DNA from: Planctomycetota bacterium
GTDB lineage: Bacteria > Planctomycetota > Planctomycetia > Planctomycetales > Planctomycetaceae
NCBI GenBank assembly: GCA_003670925.1
Contig: QWQG01000224.1
Coordinates: 1-34,606, forward strand
DNA: 34,606 nt
Direction of reading: 5' to 3'
Positions 12,016-28,341 of this stretch are shown one piece after another. The notes under the pieces are model-generated. The model saw only the letters and a list, made by a program, of their open reading frames with translations. It was not told the DNA's origin and ran no database searches. The number at the start of each line of letters is the position of its first letter. The first letter of the stretch is position 1. The translations under genes and the position numbers were made by a program.

Positions 12016-12057
12016 AGGAACCGCAAGGTAGAAGCCGTCGGCGTGCTGGAGTTATGC

Positions 12058-13365
12058 TTGAATAAGACTGAAATTCACGTCACATGTCCGGGTTGCGGAT
12101 GTTTGTGCGATGATGTCGAACTGACATTTGCAGAGGGCCGGATCTCGAAGTTTGCGCCGCAGTGTGCGCTGGGAGAACGCTGGTTCCGCAATCATTCCGA
12201 AGTGACTCAGCCAGTCGCGGAGCTGGAGGGGATCGCCACGGACTATGACACCGCTGTGCGGCAGTCGCTGGAGTTACTTGAACAAGCCGATTATCCGCTG
12301 ATCTATGGCCTGTCCCGGAGTTCTAGTCCTGGTCAGCGCGCGGCCGTTGCTTTGGCAGATCGCATTGGGGCCGTGATCGATACAACCGCATCAATGTGCC
12401 ATGGTCCGTCAATCATGGCCCTGCAGGAAGTCGGCGAAGTGACATGCACGCTCGGCGAAGTTCGCAATCGTGCCGACCTCGTGATTTTCTGGGGATGTCA
12501 TCCGGCCGCATCGCATCCTCGGCATGCTGACCGCTATTCGGTGTTTGCGAAAGGTAGATTTACTCCTGATGGCCGCGACAGCCGTATAGTCGTGATGATT
12601 GGGGAAGCAAACAAAGTGGCCGCTTGGAAATTATCTCCGAGCGGCGGCGAAGCAGATCTGGTCATTCCCGTACCGCTCGACGGTGATTTTGAAATGATCG
12701 CCCAGCTTCGCGCATTGCTCCGTGGCACGCATGTGGATGGCGTAACAGAGCCTGTACTGCAACTGATCGAATTGATGAAGAATTGCCATTACGGTATCGT
12801 ATTCTTCGGCCTTGGTCTCGCAGGGTCGCGGATGTGGGAGGGTAGCCAGCCCACGAATTCCGGACACATTCATGTCGCGGCACTTTTGCAACTGGTCGCG
12901 GAACTCAACGCCGTGACACGTTTTACTGCCCGCCGCATGCGAATGCAGGGCGATGTCTCTGGGGCGGACAATGTTTTGCTGTGGCAGACCGGATATCCGT
13001 TTGCGGTCGATATCGCCCGCGGCTATCCGCGTTACAACCCCGGTGAGTTTTCTGCAAATGAGTTGCTTGAACGGTGCGAATCGGATCTGTGCGTCATTGT
13101 TGGGGCCGAAACAATCCCGCACTTTTCCCGTGCGGCCCGCGACCATCTCAAGTCCATCCCGACGATTGTTCTAGATTACCCAAACGTCCCGCTTGAGTTC
13201 ACTCCCACAGTAAGTTTTACGACTGCGGTTTATGGATTGCACGCTGCGGGCACGGCATATCGGATGGACAATGTGCCGCTGCCGCTTCGCGCACTTCAAC
13301 CATCGCCGTATCCCACTGACGAAGTTGTGTTGACCGATCTGCTGGCAGGGTTCAGGGGGGATTGA
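12058..13365 (+). CDS. Formylmethanofuran dehydrogenase subunit B homologue (FwdB/FhcB)
   Basis: This is the molybdopterin-oxidoreductase-type B subunit of formylmethanofuran dehydrogenase, or of the bacterial formyltransferase/hydrolase (Fhc) complex of H4MPT-linked C1 metabolism. The N-terminus has the cysteine cluster [14 protein letters not shown], a likely [4Fe-4S] site. TASMCHGPS (~110) carries the cysteine that ligates W/Mo in archaeal FwdB, and [13 protein letters not shown] follows. Length (~435 residues) is normal. I chose TTG 12058, six bases after GGAG; GTG 12043 is the in-frame alternative. Planctomycetes are known to hold H4MPT pathway genes, but fhcA, fhcC and fhcD are not in this window. 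The gene lies between a phosphatase and a MoxR ATPase. Confidence 0.85.
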
Positions 13366-15768: not shown

Positions 15769-18700
15769 TCAGTCACTCAGTTTCTCTCGTATCTTACGGC
15801 AGTGCTGTTCGACCCAAGCGGAAAACTCGCGGACGTTCGCCATTTGTGTCTCGAGTTCCTCCAGCGGCACATCGGAATCGTGAATAGATTTCATGCGGCG
15901 GGCGAGCATTTGCCAGTCGCGTGTGCCGGGTGTCGGCAGAGTCAAGTCTTTGGCATTGCCGCGTACCATGCGCAGGCAATCAATCAGCTCGCGCAGGAAA
16001 ATGTAGGCGCGTTCGATCGACGCGCGATGGCTTGGAACAACTAGATTTAAGCATGCCGCTTCGCTCAACACGCGCACCGTATTCGGATGACGCAGCGTCA
16101 GAAATTCGTCACCGAAAGTCATCTGCAGAGCCTGCACTGCATATTCGCAATCCACGATCCCACCGTCGCTCAGCTTGACATTGATTGCGCCTCCATGCAC
16201 AAGCTGTCGTATCTGACGTTCGCGCATGGCATGCATCGCAGAAAAATCAAACTGTCCCGTTCCATAAATTGCGCGATGACAGGCCATCGTCACGACAGTT
16301 CGAAATTCTGGTTTTCCCGCGACGCAACGAAACTTGACCAGCGTCTGTCGCTCGTATGGCCATGCTGGGCCCTCGACAGCGTAGTATTTTTCGAAATCCT
16401 GCAGCGATACCGCCGCGGAACCTGCTTGCCCGAATGGCCTCATCCGCAAGTCGATATGAAAGATTCCATCCTGCGGCGCGGTAATTCCGGAGGCCACAGC
16501 ATTGACAAGCTGTTCGAAGAATACCGCATTAGAAACTGAATTGACTCCGTTTGTGCGACCCGCCTCGGCAAAAATTAGCATCAATTCGATGTCGGACGCA
16601 AAGCCCATTTCGATGCCGCCAAATTTCCCAAGACCTGCGACAACCCAGTCACATTCCGTGATATCGTCCTCGCACAATGGCTGACCGCATTGCGCCACCA
16701 GTTGGTGCCACGCAACTTCCAACGCTTTGCAGACAACCAACTCAGCCAGTTCAGTCAATTCTTCGGAAAAAGCACCAAACGGACGACAGTGTCCCAGCAC
16801 ATGCCGCATGTCGATGCGAAACAGATGCCTGTCCTTAAAGACGTTCAGCGCTGTCCACGCAGCCACGGAATCCAAGGCATCGTCGCACACCTGATCCAAT
16901 TCAAGTCTCAGCGACTCTGGGCATTCACGAATGGCCAGTTCTTCGGGATTGGTGAGCAACGGAAACAGCTGCTGATGTCGCGACTGCAGAAATGCTTCCC
17001 AGAGATACTGGCTGATCCCAAGCACTCGTGCCACAGCATGCAGCACGCTGGGCCGCCGCAATGACTTCATGTTGTCGAACCACGCGACAGTAGGCTGCAG
17101 ACGGGAAACAAGATCGCGGAATCGAGCTAGGGCGTGATGCGGATCATTCGTGGTCGGCAACCAGTGCGTGAACTGTTTAATCAGGGTCGCGGCTAGTTGC
17201 AGTTCTTGTAACCGCTCGGCACTGTCGATTGGGCGACCGTTGCGTTCGCGAACATACAACACGTCACGCACCTGACTGCCCTCGGCACCAATGATCGCCC
17301 GCAGTACACGAAACCGGCTGAGCGAAAGGGCGCTGGCCAATTCGTACATGAATCCCCACGAATCTGCACCTCTGATATTCATCTGAGTCAGCACGGAATT
17401 CGGCAATCGAAGCAGTTCAATGTCGACATCAGCCGACGTTGATTCAGGCACAGACTGCTGCGGCACGGCGTCGCAAAATCGAGACAGTAACTCCGCGCGG
17501 ACGTCCTCGATGCCGCTGCCACGCGACTGTTGACTAAGCCGCCCGATTTCTTCCTGCAGCGACGCTGCCAGTTTTTGGCCTAACGTTGAAGACTCCGATG
17601 ATTCGGCAACAGGGACTTCCAGTCGCACTTCGAAACACGCCAGAAATCGACCGGCGACGCAACGATCTCCGAGACCATTCAAGCCTTCCCCCGTCAACGC
17701 ATCACCGCGACGAATATCTAGGCGATAAATGGAAAGCAGACCGCAAATCACCGACAACCATCCGGAGAAATCTTTGCCACAGACGACCATGTCCCAGTGG
17801 TCGATCGTCACCGAATTTCGCCGCAGTGACACAATCACGGGTGAACCGGCATCGACCGCCGCAAAAATCTCCATCAGCCGCTGCCGCCGGGCCTGCAAAG
17901 CGGGCTGGGACAAAACAGCATCCAACATAGCCGTTGAGGCTTGCGTGATCGTCCATTCCGGAGCGGCGACTGTGTTCAGGGGTGATGAACTGAACTGCAG
18001 GCATTCCGCAAAAATGGCACGGACTGCGTGGCGATGTTCGTCGAAGCGGCGCAGCAAAGTCGCGGCATCTGGATAGTCCATCCGATGAGCCAGCCACTCC
18101 AATTGACGCTCATCGACCGGAAGTTCATGCGTCTGTTGATTGTGGAGCAATTGGAGCGCATGCTCGACCGTCCGCAGAAAGACATAACCCGCCCGTAAGT
18201 GTCGATACCAGACGGCACTGATCAAACCAAACTCGGCCAGCCGCACTAGCGAATCCAGCGTATTGAAACTCAGAATACGCGGCTCGCGTTCGCCGTGAAT
18301 CAGTTGCAGGCTCTGGACAAGGAATTCTACGTCGCGAATCGAGCCGACTCCCAACTTGACTTCGGAATTTAGTTTTCCCCGTTGACGTAGGCGAAATTCG
18401 ATCCGTTCTTTCATCTGCTGAATACTGCGGCGAATATCCACTGCCGAATCGGTGAACAACAAGGGCCGAATCCGATTCAAAAACCGCTTGCCGACTCCCA
18501 TGTCGCCAGCCACAACGCGGGCTTTAAGCATGGCCTGTTTTTCCCAAGCTGCGGCGTCCTCAACTAAATAAGCGGCATAGGCATCGATCGTATGCACCAG
18601 CGGTCCCGCCTCACCCCACGGACGCAGTCGCAAATCAACGCGGTACAGGAAACCCGGCGGAACGTCTTCAGCGAGCCCGTCGATCATGAGTCGCGCGACC

Positions 18701-19476
18701 CGTTGCACATGCCCTGAATCGTGCTCGCAGATCAGCACAAGGTCAATGTCGGAACTGTAATTGAGTTCCTCGCCACCATGCTTCCCGAGACTGATCACTG
18801 CCAGCGGCAGATTATCAATTTTTGCCTCATGCAGGGCAAGGTTCAGACAGCACTGAACCATGCTATCCGCGAGCAGCGAAAGTTGGAGTGTGACAAATCT
18901 CAAGTCTAGCAGCCCGAAAGCATCACACATCCCGATGCGGAGGAGCTCGCGTCGCTGAAATCGTCGCAGATCCGACAGGATTTGCGGCCGTCTGCCACTG
19001 GTCGCGAAAGCCGTCGTGGCATCCAAAACAAATTGTTCGCGGGACTTCATTTCGGAAGTCCGTCCGTGCAACGCAAGTACTGTCAGATAAGGCGGATCGG
19101 CCAGCAGTGTTTGCGTCAAAAATGGGCTTGCACACGCCAGCCTTGCGAGGATTCCCAAGGCACGTGGCGTGGCATTCAATAACGCAAACACGTCGAACTG
19201 TTCGTGCGCGTTGCGCACATATTGATCGACAACGTTGAGTACGAAATCTTTGAACGGAGCTTCCTGGCAGACGCGCTGCAGACTCCAATACCATGCCGGT
19301 TCTGCAGATGCATCCGTCTTCGCAGCGGCATTCATCTTAAGCGAATCACGCCACACCGACGTGATTCTCATCATGGCGCGCACCGCGGCTTCCGGATCGG
19401 AAAACCCCGTAGTCCGAAACAGACTCACATTGGCTATGAGCTGCAATTCGGTCAGATTGTCAAAGGATGGCAGCAT
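15769..19476 (-). CDS. glnE: Glutamine synthetase adenylyltransferase/adenylyl-removase with ACT-like insert
   Basis: GlnE attaches AMP to, and removes it from, a tyrosine of glutamine synthetase, tuning nitrogen assimilation. Two nucleotidyltransferase halves are visible: LGKHGGEELNYSSDIDLVLI near residue 230 with the helical KLGVGSIRDVEFLVQSLQ segment after it, and LGKFGGIEMGFASDIELMLI near 947 with SDGGIVDCEYAVQALQ later. In the second half the DxD pair is DxE. Between them, about 590-750, lie two stretches resembling ACT domains (DHWDMVVCGKDFSGWLSVICGLL; MNIRGADSWGFMYELASALS...VRDVLYVRERNG). At about 1235 residues the protein is far longer than E. coli GlnE (946). ATG 19476 is the first ATG; TTG 19566 would add 30 residues. 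No Shine-Dalgarno is clear at either. Confidence 0.92.
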   Translation of the reverse strand: MLPSFDNLTELQLIANVSLFRTTGFSDPEAAVRAMMRITSVWRDSLKMNAAAKTDASAEPAWYWSLQRVCQEAPFKDFVLNVVDQYVRNAHEQFDVFALLNATPRALGILARLACASPFLTQTLLADPPYLTVLALHGRTSEMKSREQFVLDATTAFATSGRRPQILSDLRRFQRRELLRIGMCDAFGLLDLRFVTLQLSLLADSMVQCCLNLALHEAKIDNLPLAVISLGKHGGEELNYSSDIDLVLICEHDSGHVQRVARLMIDGLAEDVPPGFLYRVDLRLRPWGEAGPLVHTIDAYAAYLVEDAAAWEKQAMLKARVVAGDMGVGKRFLNRIRPLLFTDSAVDIRRSIQQMKERIEFRLRQRGKLNSEVKLGVGSIRDVEFLVQSLQLIHGEREPRILSFNTLDSLVRLAEFGLISAVWYRHLRAGYVFLRTVEHALQLLHNQQTHELPVDERQLEWLAHRMDYPDAATLLRRFDEHRHAVRAIFAECLQFSSSPLNTVAAPEWTITQASTAMLDAVLSQPALQARRQRLMEIFAAVDAGSPVIVSLRRNSVTIDHWDMVVCGKDFSGWLSVICGLLSIYRLDIRRGDALTGEGLNGLGDRCVAGRFLACFEVRLEVPVAESSESSTLGQKLAASLQEEIGRLSQQSRGSGIEDVRAELLSRFCDAVPQQSVPESTSADVDIELLRLPNSVLTQMNIRGADSWGFMYELASALSLSRFRVLRAIIGAEGSQVRDVLYVRERNGRPIDSAERLQELQLAATLIKQFTHWLPTTNDPHHALARFRDLVSRLQPTVAWFDNMKSLRRPSVLHAVARVLGISQYLWEAFLQSRHQQLFPLLTNPEELAIRECPESLRLELDQVCDDALDSVAAWTALNVFKDRHLFRIDMRHVLGHCRPFGAFSEELTELAELVVCKALEVAWHQLVAQCGQPLCEDDITECDWVVAGLGKFGGIEMGFASDIELMLIFAEAGRTNGVNSVSNAVFFEQLVNAVASGITAPQDGIFHIDLRMRPFGQAGSAAVSLQDFEKYYAVEGPAWPYERQTLVKFRCVAGKPEFRTVVTMACHRAIYGTGQFDFSAMHAMRERQIRQLVHGGAINVKLSDGGIVDCEYAVQALQMTFGDEFLTLRHPNTVRVLSEAACLNLVVPSHRASIERAYIFLRELIDCLRMVRGNAKDLTLPTPGTRDWQMLARRMKSIHDSDVPLEELETQMANVREFSAWVEQHCRKIREKLSD

Positions 19477-19823: not shown

Positions 19824-21947
19824 ATGAGCGTCTCTGATTTGAATGCAAGGGCCGCGGAATCGGACCTTTTGGCTGCGACATTGGTTTTTGAACAGATTGC
19901 GCTGCGGGATGGTCTGCATGTGGATCGGTCGAAAGTACGACGCGCCGTGGACGAGGCCGCCGAAACCTACTTTGGTATGCATGAAGGCGGCTGGTGGCGT
20001 TGGATTGTGGAAACAGGACATAGCCTTGGTCGCAACTGTCGGGTGATTGATGGTGAGGTGCAGCAATTGGTGCGGCTTGCCCGCGATGGCGTCGTCGTGA
20101 TCCTGCGTTCCGACGACGGGCAGACGTGGCATGCGCTGAGGGCGAATGGACGACGACTTAGCTTTTTCACACCGGCTGATGATCGCCCGGTACGCATCGT
20201 ATCACCACGAAAGATCGAACGACTGCTGCGCAAGGATGGCTTTGAGGGCACTCTGCGATGCGTCGTGGTGGAATCGTCAGCGACGTTTTCCGAGTCATTC
20301 GTGGCGCAAGAAGGAGAAAAGAAGCCGCTGCAGCGCTTGCTGTCACTCCTGCGAGCGGAAAGCAGCGACGTCTGGGTCATTGTGATCTTCGCCTTGGTCT
20401 CCGGTCTGCTGACGATGACCACGCCACTGGCCGTGGAGGCGCTGGTCAATACCGTAGCATTCGGTCGCTTTCTCCAGCCGGTGATTGGCTTATCACTCAT
20501 GCTGCTCACGTTTCTCATTTTTCAGGCGGCGCTGAAAGCCATTCAGACGGTCGTCGTGGAAATCATCCAGCGGCGATTGTTCGCGCGAGTCGCAGCAGAA
20601 TTGTCCTTTCGGCTTCCTCGAACGCGCGTGGAGGCGCTTGATGGCAAGTACGCACCGGAACTGGTGAATCGATTCTTTGACATTGTGATCGTACAAAAGA
20701 TCAGTGCGCAATTGTTGCTGGATGGAATTACGCTCGTCCTGACCGTCGCGGTCGGCATGACAGTGCTCGCATTTTATCATCCGTATCTCCTGGCGTTCGA
20801 CATTGTTCTGATCCTTGCGATTTTGTTAACCATGTTTGTGCTGGGTCACGGAGCAGTGAAGACCAGTATTAAGGAATCAAAAACCAAATACGCAATGGCA
20901 GCCTGGCTGGAAGATCTGGCTCGCTGCCGCACGACGTTTCGTTACGATGGAGCGGCTGAGTTTGCGATGGAACGATCGGATCAGCTGATTTACAACTACC
21001 TGATGGCGCGCAAGAAGCACTTCAAAGTGCTGATACGGCAAATCATTTTCATGCTGTTGCTGCAGGCGCTGGCGAGTACGGCGTTGCTGGCGATCGGGGG
21101 ATGGCTGGTGATTTCCGGACAGTTGTCGCTGGGACAGCTTGTGGCGGCAGAACTGATTGTGGCAGTGGTCGTCGGATCGTTCGCCAAACTCGGTAAGCAC
21201 ATTGAGAGTTTTTACGATCTGATGGCTTCGATCGACAAAATCGGATCCCTGTTTGATCTGCCGATCGAACGGACCGATGGATTGCTCACGACGGGTTCAG
21301 GAACGGGAATCGTCATCAAAGATGTCCGCTATTCCCTCCCGGACGGACGTGAAATTCTGAACAACGTTTCCCTGACGATTCATGCCGGCCAGAAAGTCGC
21401 CATCAGCGGCACCAGTGGTTGCGGAAAGAGCCTTCTGCTGGACATGCTCTTTGGGATGCGGGAACCCGCTTCAGGGCTGATCACGGTGAATGGTATTGAC
21501 CCGCGCGACGTGCGTCCGGATATATTGCGGCGACACGTGGCTCTGGCGCGTGATGTGGAAGTGTTTGAGGGGACAATTGCCGAGAACGTGCATCTGGAGC
21601 GGCCGGATATCAGCATCCGCGATGTCCGCGCGGCCTTGGAACTTGTCGAACTTCTGCAGCTGGTCCAGCATCATCCGCAGGGACTCGACACGCCTTTGAA
21701 TTCCGCAGGAGCACCACTCACAACCAGCCAACTGCGCCGGCTGATGGTGGCACGCGCAATCGTCGGAGCCCCGGAAATCGTGCTCCTCGATGAGATTCTG
21801 GACAGTCTGTCCGACACAGACGCTTCACGGATTCTGCAACGGATCGCTGCGGCTGAAAGACCGTGGACGATTGTGCTGGTGACAAATCGAGAAAAACTGA
21901 AGTCATTGATGGACAGCGTGATTGATCTCACGCCAGCCGCTCGGTAA
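19824..21947 (+). CDS. Type I secretion-like ABC exporter (permease-ATPase) with degenerate signature
   Basis: A 707-residue fused permease-ATPase of the HlyB/LapB exporter class. Residues 1-155 form a soluble domain that may be a degenerate C39-like domain; no catalytic Cys/His pair is seen. The transmembrane domain spans about 160-450 (DVWVIVIFALVSGLLTM..., GLSLMLLTFLIFQAAL, YLLAFDIVLILAILLTMF, IFMLLLQALASTALLAIGG). The ATPase part (~485-707) has Walker A GTSGCGKS (~528) and Walker B EIVLLDEIL. The signature is LTTSQ instead of LSGGQ, and the H-loop position reads VTNRE (N for H). It should lie in the inner membrane and act with the HlyD adaptor and TolC-like protein downstream. Substrate unknown. 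The cluster holds no obvious secreted toxin or RTX protein. Confidence 0.85.
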   Translation: MSVSDLNARAAESDLLAATLVFEQIALRDGLHVDRSKVRRAVDEAAETYFGMHEGGWWRWIVETGHSLGRNCRVIDGEVQQLVRLARDGVVVILRSDDGQTWHALRANGRRLSFFTPADDRPVRIVSPRKIERLLRKDGFEGTLRCVVVESSATFSESFVAQEGEKKPLQRLLSLLRAESSDVWVIVIFALVSGLLTMTTPLAVEALVNTVAFGRFLQPVIGLSLMLLTFLIFQAALKAIQTVVVEIIQRRLFARVAAELSFRLPRTRVEALDGKYAPELVNRFFDIVIVQKISAQLLLDGITLVLTVAVGMTVLAFYHPYLLAFDIVLILAILLTMFVLGHGAVKTSIKESKTKYAMAAWLEDLARCRTTFRYDGAAEFAMERSDQLIYNYLMARKKHFKVLIRQIIFMLLLQALASTALLAIGGWLVISGQLSLGQLVAAELIVAVVVGSFAKLGKHIESFYDLMASIDKIGSLFDLPIERTDGLLTTGSGTGIVIKDVRYSLPDGREILNNVSLTIHAGQKVAISGTSGCGKSLLLDMLFGMREPASGLITVNGIDPRDVRPDILRRHVALARDVEVFEGTIAENVHLERPDISIRDVRAALELVELLQLVQHHPQGLDTPLNSAGAPLTTSQLRRLMVARAIVGAPEIVLLDEILDSLSDTDASRILQRIAAAERPWTIVLVTNREKLKSLMDSVIDLTPAAR

Positions 21948-21963
21948 GGACTTGATCGAAAAC

Positions 21964-22030
21964 AAGTGTCGTCTTTCGCTCCGCGAAAGTTGCGAAACAC
22001 GCTGCTTTCGCGGAGCGAAAGGCGACACTT
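21964..22030. repeat. REPIN-like inverted repeat (two hairpins within a long stem)
   Basis: The left arm 21964-21989 and right arm 22005-22030 are reverse complements over 26 bases with one mismatch, around a 15-base loop. Each arm contains its own hairpin: CTTTCGC-TCC-GCGAAAG on the left and the mirror CTTTCGC-GGA-GCGAAAG on the right, flanked by AAGTGTCG and CGACACTT. This two-hairpin layout is that of REP doublets or REPINs. It lies between the exporter and adaptor genes and could attenuate transcription or protect mRNA. Confidence 0.8.
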
Positions 22031-22097
22031 AAAAATAAATCTGTCCTAACTCGTGCGACTGTTGTCGTTAAGTTCCGCACACACCAGATCGGTCACT

Positions 22098-23498
22098 ATG
22101 AATACCAGCATGACAACTCTGCCCGCATCCATCGAATCCACACCGCGACGACGATCCATTCTGACACCGGTCGCCTACAGCGAAGCGCTGATGCCTTCTC
22201 TGCAGCTTGCCAGATCATCGCGGATCGCCCGACGAATTGCCGTCATCATGCTGATGCTGCTGACAGCCACAATTTTTCTGATGGCTTTTGCACCATGGCA
22301 ACAGACGATTACCGGTGCCGGTTACGTCGTCGCCTATGCGCCGCGCGAACGGCAGCAGGTGCTGGAAGCAACCACCGAAGGTCGCATCTTTCGCTGGAAC
22401 GACGAATTGTTTGAGAATGCACGTGTCTCGAAAGGGGATTTCATTGCCGAAATCCGCGACATTGATGACTCCTATACGTTTCGCTTGCAGGGACAGATGG
22501 ACAACACGATTGCCATTCTGGACGCCTCGCAGAAAATGGTCACCGCCAGCGAAGGCCAGCTTGCGGCGTATAAGAGAGTCGCCACGGAAATCGAAGCGGC
22601 TCAGAACGCCTACGTGCAGTCTGCCACAGAAAAAGTCACCGCCGCCGAACAGAAACTCGCTATCGCAGAAGCGGCAATCTTTCAATTGCAGGCCGCTTAT
22701 AATCGGGCGAAGGATCTGCATGCCGCAGGAAACATCGCGCTTGAGAAACTGCAGGAGATCGAACGTAAGCTTCAGGAATCTCAGGCCAAAGTCAAAGAGG
22801 AAACGGCAAACGCTTCTGCCGCACGCGCCGAACTCATGGGAAAGCGGAGCGACCGTGAAGCTTACATCCATAAAGCTGAAGCTGACGTGCAGTATTACGG
22901 AGGCGCGCTCGACAAGGCAAAGTCAGAAGTTTCCAAGGCAGAAAAAGAGCAGTTCGAGATGGAATCCAAGGTTTCGCGGCAAAGTACTCAGGAGATCATC
23001 GCGCCTTTCGACGGATACCTAGTCCATCTCAGCGCGAATGTTGGATCGCAGATGGTCAAGAAGGGTGATCCGATCTGCACGATAGTGCCTGAGACCAGTG
23101 AGCGCGCCGTTCAGATCTGGCTGGACGGCAACGATGCCCCACTGGTGGCGGCGGGGCGACACGTGCGTTTACAGTTTGAAGGCTGGCCAGCCATTCAGTT
23201 CGCCGGTTGGCCATCTGTTGCGGTCGGTACGTTCGGCGGCACGGTCGTCTCAGTCGATATGGTGGATAACGGCAAGGGGAAATTTCGGTGCCAGATTCTG
23301 CCGGACAAGACTGAAACGATTCAGTGGCCTCAGGATCGGTTCCTGCGTCAGGGTGTGCGCGCGAACGGTTGGGTGCTGCTGGAACAGGTGCCCCTGTGGT
23401 TCGAGGTCTGGCGGCAACTTAACGGCTTCCCGCCCATAGTGGATGTGGAATCATCCCTGTATTCGACCGAGAAAAAAGCCGATTCTGACGGCAAGTGA
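22098..23498 (+). CDS. HlyD-family membrane fusion (adaptor) protein
   Basis: This ~466-residue periplasmic adaptor would join the ABC exporter to the outer-membrane channel. A short cytoplasmic N-terminus is followed by one transmembrane helix (IAVIMLMLLTATIFLMAFAPW, about 55-75). A lipoyl-type half-motif comes next (ATTEGRIFRWNDELFENARVSKGDFIAEIRD), then a long coiled-coil hairpin rich in A, E, K and Q (about 140-300), then the second lipoyl half (IIAPFDGYLVHLSANVGSQMVKKGDPICTIVPE) and a beta-barrel part. I chose ATG 22098; a TTG at 22053 would add 15 residues. It follows the exporter gene after the REPIN-like hairpin. Confidence 0.9.
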   Translation: MNTSMTTLPASIESTPRRRSILTPVAYSEALMPSLQLARSSRIARRIAVIMLMLLTATIFLMAFAPWQQTITGAGYVVAYAPRERQQVLEATTEGRIFRWNDELFENARVSKGDFIAEIRDIDDSYTFRLQGQMDNTIAILDASQKMVTASEGQLAAYKRVATEIEAAQNAYVQSATEKVTAAEQKLAIAEAAIFQLQAAYNRAKDLHAAGNIALEKLQEIERKLQESQAKVKEETANASAARAELMGKRSDREAYIHKAEADVQYYGGALDKAKSEVSKAEKEQFEMESKVSRQSTQEIIAPFDGYLVHLSANVGSQMVKKGDPICTIVPETSERAVQIWLDGNDAPLVAAGRHVRLQFEGWPAIQFAGWPSVAVGTFGGTVVSVDMVDNGKGKFRCQILPDKTETIQWPQDRFLRQGVRANGWVLLEQVPLWFEVWRQLNGFPPIVDVESSLYSTEKKADSDGK

Positions 23499-23605
23499 AT
23501 AGCGGTACAGTAGAAATCAGGGACGTCGCCCGTGGAGTCTATGAACTTCGCTTTCGCATTGACATCCTAAGGAATTACCCGCACACTTCACGGATTAAGG
23601 CTCCG

Positions 23606-23621
23606 AACTTCAGCCGAAGTT
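23606..23621. repeat. Short perfect hairpin after the HlyD gene
   Basis: AACTTC-agcc-GAAGTT forms a 6-bp stem with a tetraloop about 108 bases after the adaptor stop, followed by TTACATT. It could be a weak terminator but lacks a proper T run. Confidence 0.3.
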
Positions 23622-23681
23622 TACATTGCTGAACCCCGAAAGCGACCACGACGCTCACTCGCAGGAACAAAAGAACCGGGA

Positions 23682-24008
23682 ATGATGAACGACGGGATTA
23701 CCAGACTGCTGGCGTGTTGCATTTCGGCGGTCCTGTTGATCGTGCCGGGGACGTTCGGTGTATGGATTACCGTTCCGACCGAAGTCGAATTGGAAGATCC
23801 GACTGAACTCAGCGGGTTGATGGAAGGGTGTCAACTTCGCTGCGAATCGCGAAGATCTGTTGCCATCAGGGTTGCTGGCGCTGCGCTACGACGTCGTCCT
23901 GACTCTGCCGGTGCCGGGGCTTGTTGCCGCAATTTGCGGCAGACCGGTGAGCATTGCGTCTCCGGCCGCCTCCCTGGCGGCAAAGCCTTGGCTCCATTGC
24001 TGGTATAG
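23682..24008 (+). CDS. Small ORF, probably a gene remnant
   Basis: The frame starts ATGATGAACG after ACCGGG and opens with a credible membrane or signal segment (ITRLLACCISAVLLIVPGTFGVWITVPTEVELEDPTELSG). After residue ~48 the composition turns arginine- and cysteine-rich and unlike protein. A different frame (+1, running on to about 24060) reads more smoothly across 23830-24000 (NFAANREDLLPSGLLALRYDVV). I see either a truncated gene of about 48 codons or a frameshifted remnant. No family assigned. Confidence 0.25.
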   Translation: MMNDGITRLLACCISAVLLIVPGTFGVWITVPTEVELEDPTELSGLMEGCQLRCESRRSVAIRVAGAALRRRPDSAGAGACCRNLRQTGEHCVSGRLPGGKALAPLLV

Positions 24009-24205
24009 CACATCCTTGGCTGTATCGACTCCTAATATCGCCGCCGCGTTCGCGGTCTGAGGCGATGCTGTGTGTGGGCCACCGCAACATTGCCAATCAT
24101 TGCTGGCTCGCCCGAATGTTTGGGCAGCGTCGCCGATGCATTTCGTTGTCCACGCAGTCTGACTGACGCAAGGTCGAGTGGGATTTGAATTCCAGAGTAT
24201 AAGTT
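23830..24205. other. Palindrome-rich stretch without a convincing gene
   Basis: Short inverted repeats cluster here: ACGACGTCGT (23888-23897), TGCCGCAA-t-TTGCGGCA (23925-23941), CCGCC-tccct-GGCGG shortly after, and CCGCG-tt-CGCGG further on. Open frames exist on both strands but none has a ribosome site or protein-like composition. It may be a structured RNA, a decayed repeat element, or a gene remnant. Confidence 0.35.
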
Positions 24206-26545
24206 ATGGCAGAGAATTTTGTTTTGAAGAATGCACCCGTGGAAGTTCTGCCTGCCGGGCGGATAGCTGTCGTGCAGCGGAGCGTTCTGGCAGGTGCCAC
24301 TGTGGCCATGGTTGCGGTGCCTTTGTGCGTGGGAATTGCCGCCATCAGTCCCGGAATTCCGGCGTGGGCCGGGATTCTCAGTGGCATCATTGGTGGGGTT
24401 CTGGTTGGAACTATCAGTCGTTCCCGGATGGCGATCACCGGACCTACGGCCGGTTTGACGGCCGTGGTTGCCACACAGTTGGCGGTGCTCGGTTCTTTCG
24501 AAGCGCTGCTGCTGGCAGTGATGTTCGCCGGACTCCTGCAGATCATTCTTGGGTGTGTGAGAACCGGCAGTGTCGCGGCATTCTTCCCCTCATCCGTGAT
24601 TCGGGGTCTCCTGTTCGCGATTGGTATCATTTTGATTCTGAAGCAGGTCCCTCACGTCCTTGGCCACGATACAGACCCCGAGGGCGAAATGGCGTTTCTG
24701 CAGCCGGACCGCGAGAATACGTTCTCTGAGCTCGCTGAACTCACTCGCGATATTCATCCTGGAGCGGCGACTGTTGGTTTGCTGTCGATTGCTCTGATGC
24801 TGGCGTGGATCCGCGTGCCTAGGCTCCGGCGGTTTCCTGTCCCTGTGCAACTGGTCGTCATCGTGCTTGGCATTGCACTGAACCTGCTGTTCCAGAGAAT
24901 CGGCGGTCGATGGAGCATACAGCCCATCCATCTGATTCAGTTGCCTGCGCTGGACCCCGAGCGGGGAGCTCTCGGGATCCTGACGTCGCCCGCGTTCAGC
25001 CAGTGGAATAATCCATTGGTCTATCAGGCCGCGATTTTCATCGCACTGGTGGCATCACTGGAGTCGCTGCTGGGTCTCGAATCACTGGCCAAACTCGATC
25101 CTGACCAACGGAAGAATGCCCTGAACCGTGAACTGGTGGCGCAGGGTAGCGGAAATCTGTGTTGCGGCCTCCTGGGTGGACTCCCGATTACGGTTGAGAT
25201 CGTCCGCAGTTCCACCGGGCTGCATTCCGGTGGTCGGTCGCGTGTGACGATGATTACGCAGGGAATGTTGCTACTGCTCGTGATCTTTGTTCCGTCAATC
25301 GTCAACAGCATTCCACTGGCCAGCGTCGCTGCAATCCTGCTGTTCACCGGGATGCGACTCTGTGACCTCCGTGTTTTTCGGCAGATGTGGAAATCCGGTC
25401 GCTATCAGTTTTTGCCATTCATGGCCACGATCATTCCCATTATCCTCTCAGACCTGCTGGTTGGCACTCTGATCGGGCTCGCGATCAGCGTCACCTTTAT
25501 TTTGAACAGCAATCTGCGCCGGCCTCTCAGACGTGTTCTGGAACGGCATCTTGGTGGTGAAGTGCTGCACATTGAGCTTGCGAACCAGGTGAGTTTCCTC
25601 AACAGGGCCGTGCTGGAAAATGCACTCCGTGAAGCACCCCGGGGAACACATGTGCTGCTGGATGCTCGAGGGACTGATTATATTGATGCCGACGTGCTGA
25701 GTCTGATCGAGGAGTTTCGTACCGTGACAGCTCCCGTGCAGGGAGTTCAGGTCAGTCTGAGAGGTTTTCGTGAGAAGTATCTGCTGGCAGATGAGATTCG
25801 TTACGTGGATTATTCGACTCAGGAGCTTCAGCAGCAGATGACTCCGCTGCAGGTGCTGCGAGTGCTCAAAGAAGGCAACGAACGATTTCTGTCCGGCCGT
25901 CACCTGACTCGTGATCTGCGACGTCAGCTGAATGCAACAGCGGTCGGACAACATCCACTCGCCGTGGTGCTCAGTTGCATCGATTCCCGCACGCCCGTCG
26001 AACTGGTTCTTGACCTGGGACTCGGCGATGTGTTCAGCGTTCGGGTTGCCGGAAATGTAATCAGTCCCAAGGTTCTGGGAAGTATGGAATATGGTTGTGC
26101 CGTGGCCGGGGCAAAAGTTGTGCTCGTGATGGGACATACTCGCTGTGGTGCCGTCGGCGCGGCGGTTACGCTTTCGGGGTCAGCGACATCCATAGAAGAA
26201 GTGACCGGCTGTCAGCATCTGGATGCCATTCTGCATGACATTCAGGCGAATTTTGACCCCGCCACGCTGGGGAATGTGACGTCGCTCAGTGATTCCGATC
26301 GTCAGGCTCTCGTTGATGGTGTCGCGCTTGCCAATGTGAAGCACATCGTTGCCGACATCCTGGTCCAGAGCCGTACGCTGGCGAAACTAGTCGAAGAACG
26401 GAAAATCGCAATCGTAGGATCGATGTACGATGTCACAAGTGGCGAAATTCACTTCATCAAAGAGTCGGCCGTTGGTCTGTCGGAGGAGGAACTCGACAGC
26501 GTACTGTCGTCATGCACAGAAGCGACGCGAACAGCCCGATCGTAG
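24206..26545 (+). CDS. SulP anion transporter - STAS - beta-carbonic anhydrase fusion
   Basis: A 779-residue inner-membrane protein. Residues ~25-430 are a SulP/SLC26 permease (VPLCVGIAAISPGIPAWAGI, GTISRSRMAITGPTAGLTAVV, NRELVAQGSGNLCCGLLGGLP...). About 450-540 is a STAS domain (LHIELANQVSFLNRAVLENALR, LLDARGTDYIDADVLSLIEEF). About 555-779 is a beta-carbonic anhydrase with zinc-site motifs SCIDSRTPVEL (~590; Cys and the Asp-Arg dyad) and MGHTRCGAVGAAV (~640; His and Cys). All four key positions are present, so it should be active. Such SulP-CA fusions are known and thought to import bicarbonate, or to interconvert CO2 and bicarbonate at the membrane. It sits between the HlyD adaptor and the TolC-like gene on the same strand. 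Confidence 0.93.
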   Translation: MAENFVLKNAPVEVLPAGRIAVVQRSVLAGATVAMVAVPLCVGIAAISPGIPAWAGILSGIIGGVLVGTISRSRMAITGPTAGLTAVVATQLAVLGSFEALLLAVMFAGLLQIILGCVRTGSVAAFFPSSVIRGLLFAIGIILILKQVPHVLGHDTDPEGEMAFLQPDRENTFSELAELTRDIHPGAATVGLLSIALMLAWIRVPRLRRFPVPVQLVVIVLGIALNLLFQRIGGRWSIQPIHLIQLPALDPERGALGILTSPAFSQWNNPLVYQAAIFIALVASLESLLGLESLAKLDPDQRKNALNRELVAQGSGNLCCGLLGGLPITVEIVRSSTGLHSGGRSRVTMITQGMLLLLVIFVPSIVNSIPLASVAAILLFTGMRLCDLRVFRQMWKSGRYQFLPFMATIIPIILSDLLVGTLIGLAISVTFILNSNLRRPLRRVLERHLGGEVLHIELANQVSFLNRAVLENALREAPRGTHVLLDARGTDYIDADVLSLIEEFRTVTAPVQGVQVSLRGFREKYLLADEIRYVDYSTQELQQQMTPLQVLRVLKEGNERFLSGRHLTRDLRRQLNATAVGQHPLAVVLSCIDSRTPVELVLDLGLGDVFSVRVAGNVISPKVLGSMEYGCAVAGAKVVLVMGHTRCGAVGAAVTLSGSATSIEEVTGCQHLDAILHDIQANFDPATLGNVTSLSDSDRQALVDGVALANVKHIVADILVQSRTLAKLVEERKIAIVGSMYDVTSGEIHFIKESAVGLSEEELDSVLSSCTEATRTARS

Positions 26546-26694
26546 CGGTTGTTCCGGTAATAACGATTCGTGCCTGAACGTCTCTGAAATCCGATTATTC
26601 CGGTCGATCCGTTGCCGCCGTAACTCACTCCGGTGGCCGATGACGCGCATGATCGATACCCCTAGAACTGATTCGTCACGGAAGACTCATAAGA

Positions 26695-28341
26695 ATGCGC
26701 AGAATCTGCCGCATCCTGATGACTGCAATGCTGCTGACCGGCTGCGCGAGCGTGCGCAAGCCTGAGGCGGTTGTGGTTGCAGAGCGGCCGGAACAGGAAG
26801 TCGTCAATGCCCGATCAGCAGCACAGGTTTCTGATGGCGATGCACAACGCGAAGGCGACGACACGAAATCTTCAGCACACGACGGATCCATTCAGCTCAC
26901 GGGATTCCAAGTTTCCGAACAACTTGATGTGAAAATCGATGAGCCGTCTTTGGACGCAGGCGATTTACAAAGTGCGGCTCCGGGGAAAGCGATTGATGCT
27001 GAACCGCACGCCGTGCAGTTTGATGAAGTGGTCAGTTCTGTCTACCGCAGCTATCCGATGCTGGAGTCGGCACTTCTGAACCGCAATCTCGCTCTGGGGC
27101 AACAGGTCGGAGCAAGAGGCGCGTTTGACCTGAAGCTCAAGGGGGCGAGTGAAAACGGGCCGCAGGGATTCTATCAGACGTATCGCCAGAGCATTGGCGT
27201 CGTGCAGCCAACCTATGGGGGCGGCGAAGTGTTCGCGGGATATCGCATCGGACGCGGTGATTTCCAGCCATGGTATCTGGAACGTCAGACAAACGGCGGC
27301 GGTGAATTCAAAGCGGGCGTGCTGGTTCCGCTGGCTCGGAATCGCGACATCGATACGCGGCGTGCCGAACTCTGGAAAGCCGGGTATGGTCGCAATCTTG
27401 CGGAACCCGACATTCAGGCGCAACTGATCAGCTTTGTCCTGGACGCCTCGTACGCCTATTGGGACTGGGTTGCTGCCGGAGAGAACCATCACATTGCCAA
27501 ACGGATTTACGCTCTGGCGGATGAACGCACAGATCGGATCGAAGAGCAGGTGAAGGCTGGTTTTCTCGATCCGCCGGAACTCACCGACAACCTGCGACTG
27601 GTCGCCATTCGCGAAGCAAAGGTCGCCGACACACGTCGGAAGATGGAACAGACGGCCGCCAAACTTTCTGTGTACTGGCGAGATTCTCAGGACAATCCCA
27701 TCGTCGCCACCGAAGAACAATTGCCCGGCTTTCCAGAGACGGCACCTGTCGCAGACGATCTGGGGGCCAACATTCAACAGGCGCTCTCGCAGCGGCCCGA
27801 ACTCCGGATGCTGGATCTGCTGCGACAGCAGGTGCAGGTCGATTATTCTGAAGCCACCAATCAGCTTCAACCAGAACTCAACGCTGTTCTGTGGGGCTCT
27901 CAGGATGTCGGCGCTCCCACAAGTTTTAAGGGCAACAAGTCACCATTTGAAAGTGAAGCGTCTGTTTTTCTGGACGTTCCGATGCAACGCCGCAAGGCGC
28001 GTGGCAAGATGACGGAGACGCAGAGCAAGATTGCGCAGTTGTCGGCCAAACGCCGCATCACCGCTGACAAGATCAGCATCGATGTTCAGATGGCCCACGC
28101 CGCGCTGCGATCCGCCTGGGAACAGGTCGAACACACGAGTGAAGCCGTGGAGTATGCTGAAGACCTTGCCGCACGTGAACGCACAAATGAGGAAGCCGGG
28201 GTGTCCGACATGCTGAAGGTTTCGCTGCGTGAACAATACGCTTATGAATCTGCAGAAAAGAACGTCGAAGCCCTGAAACTCTACTTCGAATCCCGGGCCG
28301 ACTACCGCGCTGCGATGGCCGAGGATCAGATCGATCGGTGA
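26695..28341 (+). CDS. TolC-family outer membrane efflux lipoprotein
   Basis: A 548-residue outer-membrane factor. The N-terminus is a lipoprotein signal (MRRICRILMTAMLLTGC, lipidated Cys17), followed by a low-complexity polar linker to about residue 105. The rest is TolC-like: two long helical repeats, with a proximal half (FDEVVSSVYRSYPMLESALLNRNLALGQ...) and a distal half (NIQQALSQRPELRMLDLLRQQVQVDYSEATNQLQPELNAVL...). It ends in an E/A/R-rich coiled coil (SAWEQVEHTSEAVEYAEDLAARE, then YFESRADYRAAMAED). It should form the outer channel for the ABC/HlyD exporter. It lies 149 bases after the SulP-CA gene. No Shine-Dalgarno is obvious before ATG 26695, though the lipobox position fixes the start closely. 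Confidence 0.9.
   Translation: MRRICRILMTAMLLTGCASVRKPEAVVVAERPEQEVVNARSAAQVSDGDAQREGDDTKSSAHDGSIQLTGFQVSEQLDVKIDEPSLDAGDLQSAAPGKAIDAEPHAVQFDEVVSSVYRSYPMLESALLNRNLALGQQVGARGAFDLKLKGASENGPQGFYQTYRQSIGVVQPTYGGGEVFAGYRIGRGDFQPWYLERQTNGGGEFKAGVLVPLARNRDIDTRRAELWKAGYGRNLAEPDIQAQLISFVLDASYAYWDWVAAGENHHIAKRIYALADERTDRIEEQVKAGFLDPPELTDNLRLVAIREAKVADTRRKMEQTAAKLSVYWRDSQDNPIVATEEQLPGFPETAPVADDLGANIQQALSQRPELRMLDLLRQQVQVDYSEATNQLQPELNAVLWGSQDVGAPTSFKGNKSPFESEASVFLDVPMQRRKARGKMTETQSKIAQLSAKRRITADKISIDVQMAHAALRSAWEQVEHTSEAVEYAEDLAARERTNEEAGVSDMLKVSLREQYAYESAEKNVEALKLYFESRADYRAAMAEDQIDR

Follow-up and report, generated by a model that had tools for sequence, protein, structure and literature searches.

A planctomycete GlnE with a GlnD-type tandem ACT module between its catalytic halves

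Can the enzyme that modifies glutamine synthetase (GS) carry its own amino-acid sensor? The question is raised by a GlnE gene in a 34,606-nt planctomycete contig (QWQG01000224.1, assembly GCA_003670925.1), the whole of which is called the window below. GlnD, PII and GlnE make up the textbook bicyclic signalling cascade, and a GlnE equipped with a sensor of the GlnD kind would short-circuit it. A first-pass annotation, made from the sequence alone, had noted two stretches resembling the paired ACT domains of GlnD between the catalytic halves of the protein. We confirmed that the region between the halves holds two ACT domains in tandem and that they are homologous to the sensing module at the C-terminus of GlnD.

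The ACT pair between the catalytic halves

By domain content the window protein is a GlnE. Pfam finds two matches each to PF03710 and PF08335, the NCBIfam GlnE model NF008292 scores 492 bits (cut-off 487), and both conserved active-site motifs are present: GKHGGEELNYSSDIDL in the N-terminal half (aa 231-246; SSDIDL, with D243/D245) and GKFGGIEMGFASDIEL in the C-terminal half (aa 950-965; ASDIEL, with D962/E964). It is not a GlnD: GlnD models score 58 bits, far below the cut-off of 631, and Pfam finds no HD domain in it up to an E-value of 10. In a 55-row tree of halves from 29 chosen proteins (support as ultrafast bootstrap/SH-aLRT, the Shimodaira-Hasegawa approximate likelihood ratio test), N and C halves split at 95/89, and the window N half falls, at the same support, on the side of the N halves of E. 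coli and of ordinary GlnE. On this basis the N half is assigned to the deadenylylase (AR) type and the C half to the adenylyltransferase (AT) type, and the protein is predicted to adenylylate and deadenylylate GS; in E. coli GlnE, according to an excerpt of PMC12409994, the C-terminal domain adenylylates and the N-terminal domain deadenylylates. An upstream TTG start is possible (Table 1); the longest alignments with relatives begin at about aa 1-24 of the ATG form, i.e. they stay within the shorter version.

The homology of the inter-half region to GlnD was seen in several comparisons. A profile of the region matched 16 GlnD C-termini in hhalign at 99.8% over 230 columns, with the segment before ACT1 included, while a control region of the same GlnD proteins gave 0.4%. 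The NCBIfam GlnD model NF002895 matches the window protein with a whole-protein E-value of 3.6e-16 (best stretch 575-788 of the 1265-aa frame); the ACT+AT part alone gives 1.8e-10 with the GlnD model, and GlnD models match all 33 members of an alignment of ACT-type GlnE relatives (A3). In the reverse direction, a profile of the module scores planctomycete GlnD proteins at up to 98 bits.

AlphaFold2 predicted two ferredoxin-like bbabba units, each with a DxxG loop, within aa 500-810 at a predicted local distance difference test score (pLDDT) of 82; the model of the ACT+AT part reached a pLDDT of 86 and a predicted template modelling score (pTM) of 0.83. Comparison of profile and structure with the GlnD ACT domains had been set beforehand as the check on the first-pass annotation, and both the fold and the homology came out as it had supposed; the region it proposed, residues ~590-750, is the right one, its boundaries being too narrow for the two units (Table 1). 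Ranked by Z, the structures closest to the region were tandem ACT regulators, namely aspartokinase (11.5) and threonine deaminase (9.4 and 8.9), with CASTOR1 (7.2) lower in the list among unrelated rows. A first Foldseek run gave 1016 hits, of which three had an E-value of 0.001 or lower: two to the large glutamate dehydrogenase 7jsr, an enzyme with ACT domains, and one to a meganuclease (probability 0.25) that was taken as chance. As evidence for an ACT module, the sequence homology to GlnD is stronger than these structural matches.

Ordinary GlnE has a central regulatory domain between its halves (stated in an excerpt of PMC12409994), and one may ask if such a linker was here misread as ACT. 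We find this hardly credible, and regard it as ruled out by length, predicted fold and GlnD homology. The two halves are separated by a median of 268 aa in 39 ACT-type proteins (range 189-304), against a median of 49 aa (range -5 to 92) in 20 ordinary GlnE proteins of planctomycetes and 4 aa in E. coli, whose GlnE indeed has no such region, as the first-pass annotation had stated. To the bbabba folds and the 99.8% match with GlnD C-termini can be added the Pfam ACT models, PF01842 and PF24931, which at E-values up to 0.01 match 20 and 23 of the 33 relatives. In the 20 other planctomycete GlnE proteins read, the region is absent.

The window GlnE thus combines features of several known systems. 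Like the E. coli-type GlnE it has a homologous pair of catalytic halves arranged in the same order, carries both active-site motifs and shares its genome with a GS that has the target tyrosine; the tandem ACT module sets it apart. With GlnD (NT, HD and two ACT domains) it shares the homologous series of pre-ACT segment, ACT1, linker and ACT2; however, the module is C-terminal in GlnD and stands N-terminal to a nucleotidyltransferase half in the window GlnE, whose catalytic halves are of the GlnE family and which has no recognised HD domain. Two ACT units in tandem are also found in aspartokinase, threonine deaminase, CASTOR1 and plant ACR11, whereas in the window GlnE the pair is fused to a protein-modifying enzyme.

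Table 1. Features of the ACT-type GlnE in the window
Feature	Position	Strand	Remarks
ACT-type GlnE	15769..19476	(-)	1235 aa from ATG 19476; alternative TTG 19566 gives 1265 aa
N-terminal half, AR (deadenylylase) type	17917..19296	(-)	aa 61-520 as cut for the tree; type by tree
Pre-ACT helical segment	17851..17952	(-)	aa 509-542; homologous to the segment before ACT1 in GlnD
ACT1	17518..17838	(-)	aa 547-653; DxxG loop D569-G572
ACT2	17152..17427	(-)	aa 684-775; DxxG loop D705-G708; D738 in a later strand
C-terminal half, AT (adenylyltransferase) type	15772..17109	(-)	aa 790-1235; type by tree

Conservation, the second active site and the ACT-AT unit

Conservation was counted in 87 distinct modules out of 91 ACT-type modules; the 91-protein set took in loci with frames >1150 aa from the 80 loci of the species-genome pattern scan described below. 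D705 and D738 are invariant (87/87). Both the D and the G of the DxxG loop are present in 80 of the 87 modules for ACT1 and in 82 for ACT2 (D705 and G708). The window GlnE retains both loops and D738.

The first-pass annotation had also remarked on DxE in place of DxD at the second active site. The substitution is real and common to the whole type: DxE occurs in 89 of 91 ACT-type C halves and DxD in two, with the AT-half site conserved as GKxGGxExGxxSDxE and most of the motif around DxE invariant (in ordinary GlnE the active-site count was possible by pattern for 15 of 21 proteins). We considered DxE as the mark of a lost second site and ruled this out, as it is the rule of the clade and the surrounding motif is mostly invariant. 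Kanamycin nucleotidyltransferase likewise has D and E at that place.

In the 55-row tree the ACT-type C halves, together with four proteins of other arrangements, form a single clade (100/100, branch 1.03), and the ordinary planctomycete C halves form a separate one (100/97). A quicker 113-row tree, in which six proteins were skipped (L005, L006, L007, L019, L057 and L138), agrees on both clades. The window AT half therefore differs from the E. coli type not only by DxE but also by its place in a separate deep clade. The ACT-type N halves are placed with ordinary N halves; the position of one (G004) inside them hints at a separate joining, its long branch making this unsure. In a 39-row tree of ACT modules, the 23 from GlnE form one clade apart from the 16 from GlnD (99/98).

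Other arrangements of the same parts were found. In three planctomycete genomes (G077, G111 and G037; 99, 98 and 95% complete) the sole PF03710 domain belongs to a stand-alone ACT-AT protein (L036, L041 and L034, respectively), i.e. an adenylylating half with no recognisable deadenylylating half. In a fourth protein (L033, G290:C7) the order is ACT-AT followed by an AR-like half in a single frame. On the same contig a glnA match lies ~0.5 kb from the GlnE match of L033; in this genome (84% complete) we found no PII match and no full GlnD. Since ACT-AT occurs without AR or ahead of it, and the AT halves form their own clade, the unit is ACT-AT and 'insertion', the term of the first-pass annotation, is the wrong picture. 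A recent insertion into an ordinary planctomycete GlnE is ruled out by the separate, strongly supported clades of ACT-type and ordinary planctomycete C halves. Judged by the trees and the domain orders, the ACT pair and the AT half are one old module, inherited together.

Distribution and the surrounding nitrogen pathway

Of 294 genomes sampled across the phylum, 17 belong to the family of the window's genome, and each of these encodes a full-length homologue carrying the module. Some 85,000 species genomes of bacteria and archaea were scanned with a single peptide pattern; it picked up 250 relatives of the ACT2 region, and the best 80 were retained. These best 80 come from Planctomycetota and many Chloroflexota, along with single records titled Spirochaetales, Fraserbacteria, Calditrichota and Nitrospinota; their frames, where no contig end truncates them, mostly measure 1176-1323 aa. 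A glnA gene was present in the flanking DNA fetched around ACT-glnE (5 kb at most) for at least 25 of the 80 loci, some loci being cut by contig ends. Twenty-four of these 25 loci are titled as Chloroflexota groups and one as Spirochaetales, and in 20 glnA is divergent from ACT-glnE. None of the planctomycete ACT-glnE loci has glnA in the fetched flank. A Spirochaetales contig (G302, C43; L145, L169 and L185) carries GlnD (381 bits), PII, glnA and ACT-GlnE within ~12 kb.

The window's genome has a GlnD elsewhere, over the cut-off at 575.6 bits, and one PII with a tyrosine at what we take to be the position of the T-loop tyrosine. Its GS (L196) has a tyrosine aligned with E. coli Tyr398 (counting Met), and the adenylylation tyrosine is present in 25 of the 27 GS-like frames found by BLAST in this and the other genomes looked at. 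Both a GlnD over the cut-off and PII are present in 17 of 17 family genomes.

A different picture emerged from 150 genomes, drafts included, of the Anaerolineae, the class of Leptolinea. A GlnE domain was found in 38 of them and the ACT module in 37 of those 38; the 38th GlnE is a 446-aa frame near a contig end, a fragment. One further genome (G466) has a weak module hit without a GlnE domain. With at most five candidates scored per genome, no GlnD over the cut-off was found among the matches listed for the 150 genomes (best 81.9 bits), and nearly all the listed matches to the GlnD model are the ACT region of GlnE, the start of GlnE or an HD part in frames of other lengths. Divergent planctomycete GlnD proteins below the cut-off still score hundreds of bits among the matches listed, so a GlnD in Anaerolineae would be expected to stand out. 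As for PII, 22 of the 37 carriers of ACT-GlnE have no match, eight have one at 21-30 bits and one has one at 39.7 bits. The weak matches in Leptolinea sp. HRD-7 (G296, a complete genome) and Anaerolinea thermolimosa (G294) were read and are not PII; by appearance they are a DUF190-CBS protein and several small proteins, PstA-like except for one. Leptolinea sp. HRD-7 has an E. coli-like GS with the adenylylation tyrosine and a more distant second GS with Phe. The isolate Leptolinea tardivitalis (L133 and L184) has an ACT-GlnE and a GlnA of its own, and neither a recognisable GlnD nor a canonical PII.

In a set of 32 hand-picked carriers, a PII match is absent in 14 and GlnD is unrecognisable in 28, where three proteins over the cut-off and that of G302 (most of the model covered) were counted as GlnD. 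PII domains were also seen within open frames of 577-684 aa (G250:C109, G269:C229, G200:C175 and G280:C254), which might be fusions, e.g. with an ammonium transporter.

Elsewhere in the window, an ABC transporter, an HlyD-like protein and an outer membrane efflux protein are encoded on one strand (19824-28341, +) in what looks like a type I secretion set. Between these genes lies a permease gene (24206-26545, +), whose product joins a protein of the sulfate permease family to a domain of the carbonic anhydrase type (PF00916 and PF00484). A 440-aa frame (12043-13365, +) between genes for an alkaline phosphatase and an AAA_3/MoxR-type ATPase has no Pfam match at an E-value of 0.001.

Proposed control of GS and its meaning

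We consider it likely that the window protein is a GS adenylyltransferase/deadenylylase whose AT half bears an N-terminal GlnD-type ACT sensor, giving direct control of adenylylation by an amino acid, probably glutamine; this control would be added to the cascade here and would largely replace it in Anaerolineae. Both the ligand of the ACT pair and the direction of control we infer. Glutamine, or another amino acid signalling nitrogen sufficiency, would bind the ACT pair and tip the protein from deadenylylation towards adenylylating the GS tyrosine. Speaking for the proposal are the homology to the GlnD module, the predicted fold, the conserved ACT loops, the joint inheritance of the ACT pair and the AT half, the target tyrosine in GS, the glnA genes near ACT-glnE, and the carriers in which GlnD or PII was not recognised. 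Glutamine binding by the module is suggested by analogy with GlnD, the ACT domains of which are considered glutamine sensors (excerpt of PMC3173338). An excerpt of PMC6490700 reports that high glutamine stimulates the uridylyl-removing activity of GlnD, so the sign of control in ACT-GlnE must differ. The first-pass annotation had held that E. coli GlnE takes its glutamine signal through PII; PII does stimulate it, but the statement is too sharp: in E. coli and most Proteobacteria, the same excerpt reports, high glutamine stimulates adenylylation too.

Several observations weigh against this proposal. Pfam lists no ACT domain in the window protein even at an E-value of 10, and E. coli GlnD scores weakly with the module profile (21 bits). 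Fold comparison of the C half (Z of 39.1 for 1v4a versus 38.4 for 3k7d) cannot tell AT and AR halves apart, so the AT assignment rests on tree and position. There is no glnA beside the window glnE. Six of the 37 Anaerolineae carriers of ACT-GlnE have a clear PII (at least 85 bits). The host genome retains GlnD and PII, so direct sensing is not needed there, and the window ACT module is the longest branch (2.12) among the 23 GlnE rows of the 39-row ACT tree.

From the last two points it could be argued that in the window's genome the module is vestigial, the ACT pair drifting while GlnD-PII does the work. We regard this as improbable: the window GlnE still has both DxxG loops and D738, its ACT folds are predicted with confidence, and none of the 17 sampled family genomes, which all have GlnD and PII, lacks the module.

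A stronger competitor, though still unlikely in our view, is that the ACT pair senses another amino acid or metabolite than glutamine, or serves mainly in oligomerisation or in docking of a partner (PII where present). The ligands of ACT pairs are numerous, the solved tandem structures that come nearest (aspartokinase, threonine deaminase, CASTOR1) respond to other amino acids, and a long branch divides the GlnE-ACT clade from the GlnD-ACT clade, so that the ligand could have changed. Yet the homology is specific to the GlnD module, pre-ACT segment included, and the target enzyme produces glutamine; PII docking as a general role is at odds with the many carriers in which PII was not found.

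We thus return to direct sensing, probably of glutamine. The suggestion that sensor and modifying enzyme are merged in one protein needs qualification: they are not simply merged in the window's genome, where GlnD and PII are present and the ACT input would add to the GlnD-PII cascade. The suggestion draws most support from the Anaerolineae, with no recognisable GlnD and mostly no PII, in which ACT would be the main or only nitrogen input. The chances seem to us even for a broader proposal, in which ACT-GlnE is a one-protein sensor-effector that replaces the GlnD-PII relay, GS adenylylation being set directly by glutamine on the ACT pair, and has become the only covalent means of nitrogen control over GS in Anaerolineae that lack PII. 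In this proposal the ACT-AT core would be autonomous, combined with AR halves in at least two arrangements and working without AR in a few planctomycetes.

Among open-licence papers we found none coupling GlnE or GS adenylyltransferase with an ACT domain, which does not show absence from print; the architecture is probably visible in domain databases, because Pfam ACT models match many members.

ACT-GlnE occurs both beside a full cascade, as in the window's family, and apparently without one, as in many Anaerolineae, and is thus a testable case of a cascade gaining or losing layers. It also leads one to expect that GS is under nitrogen control in Chloroflexota whose lack of PII and GlnD would suggest otherwise.

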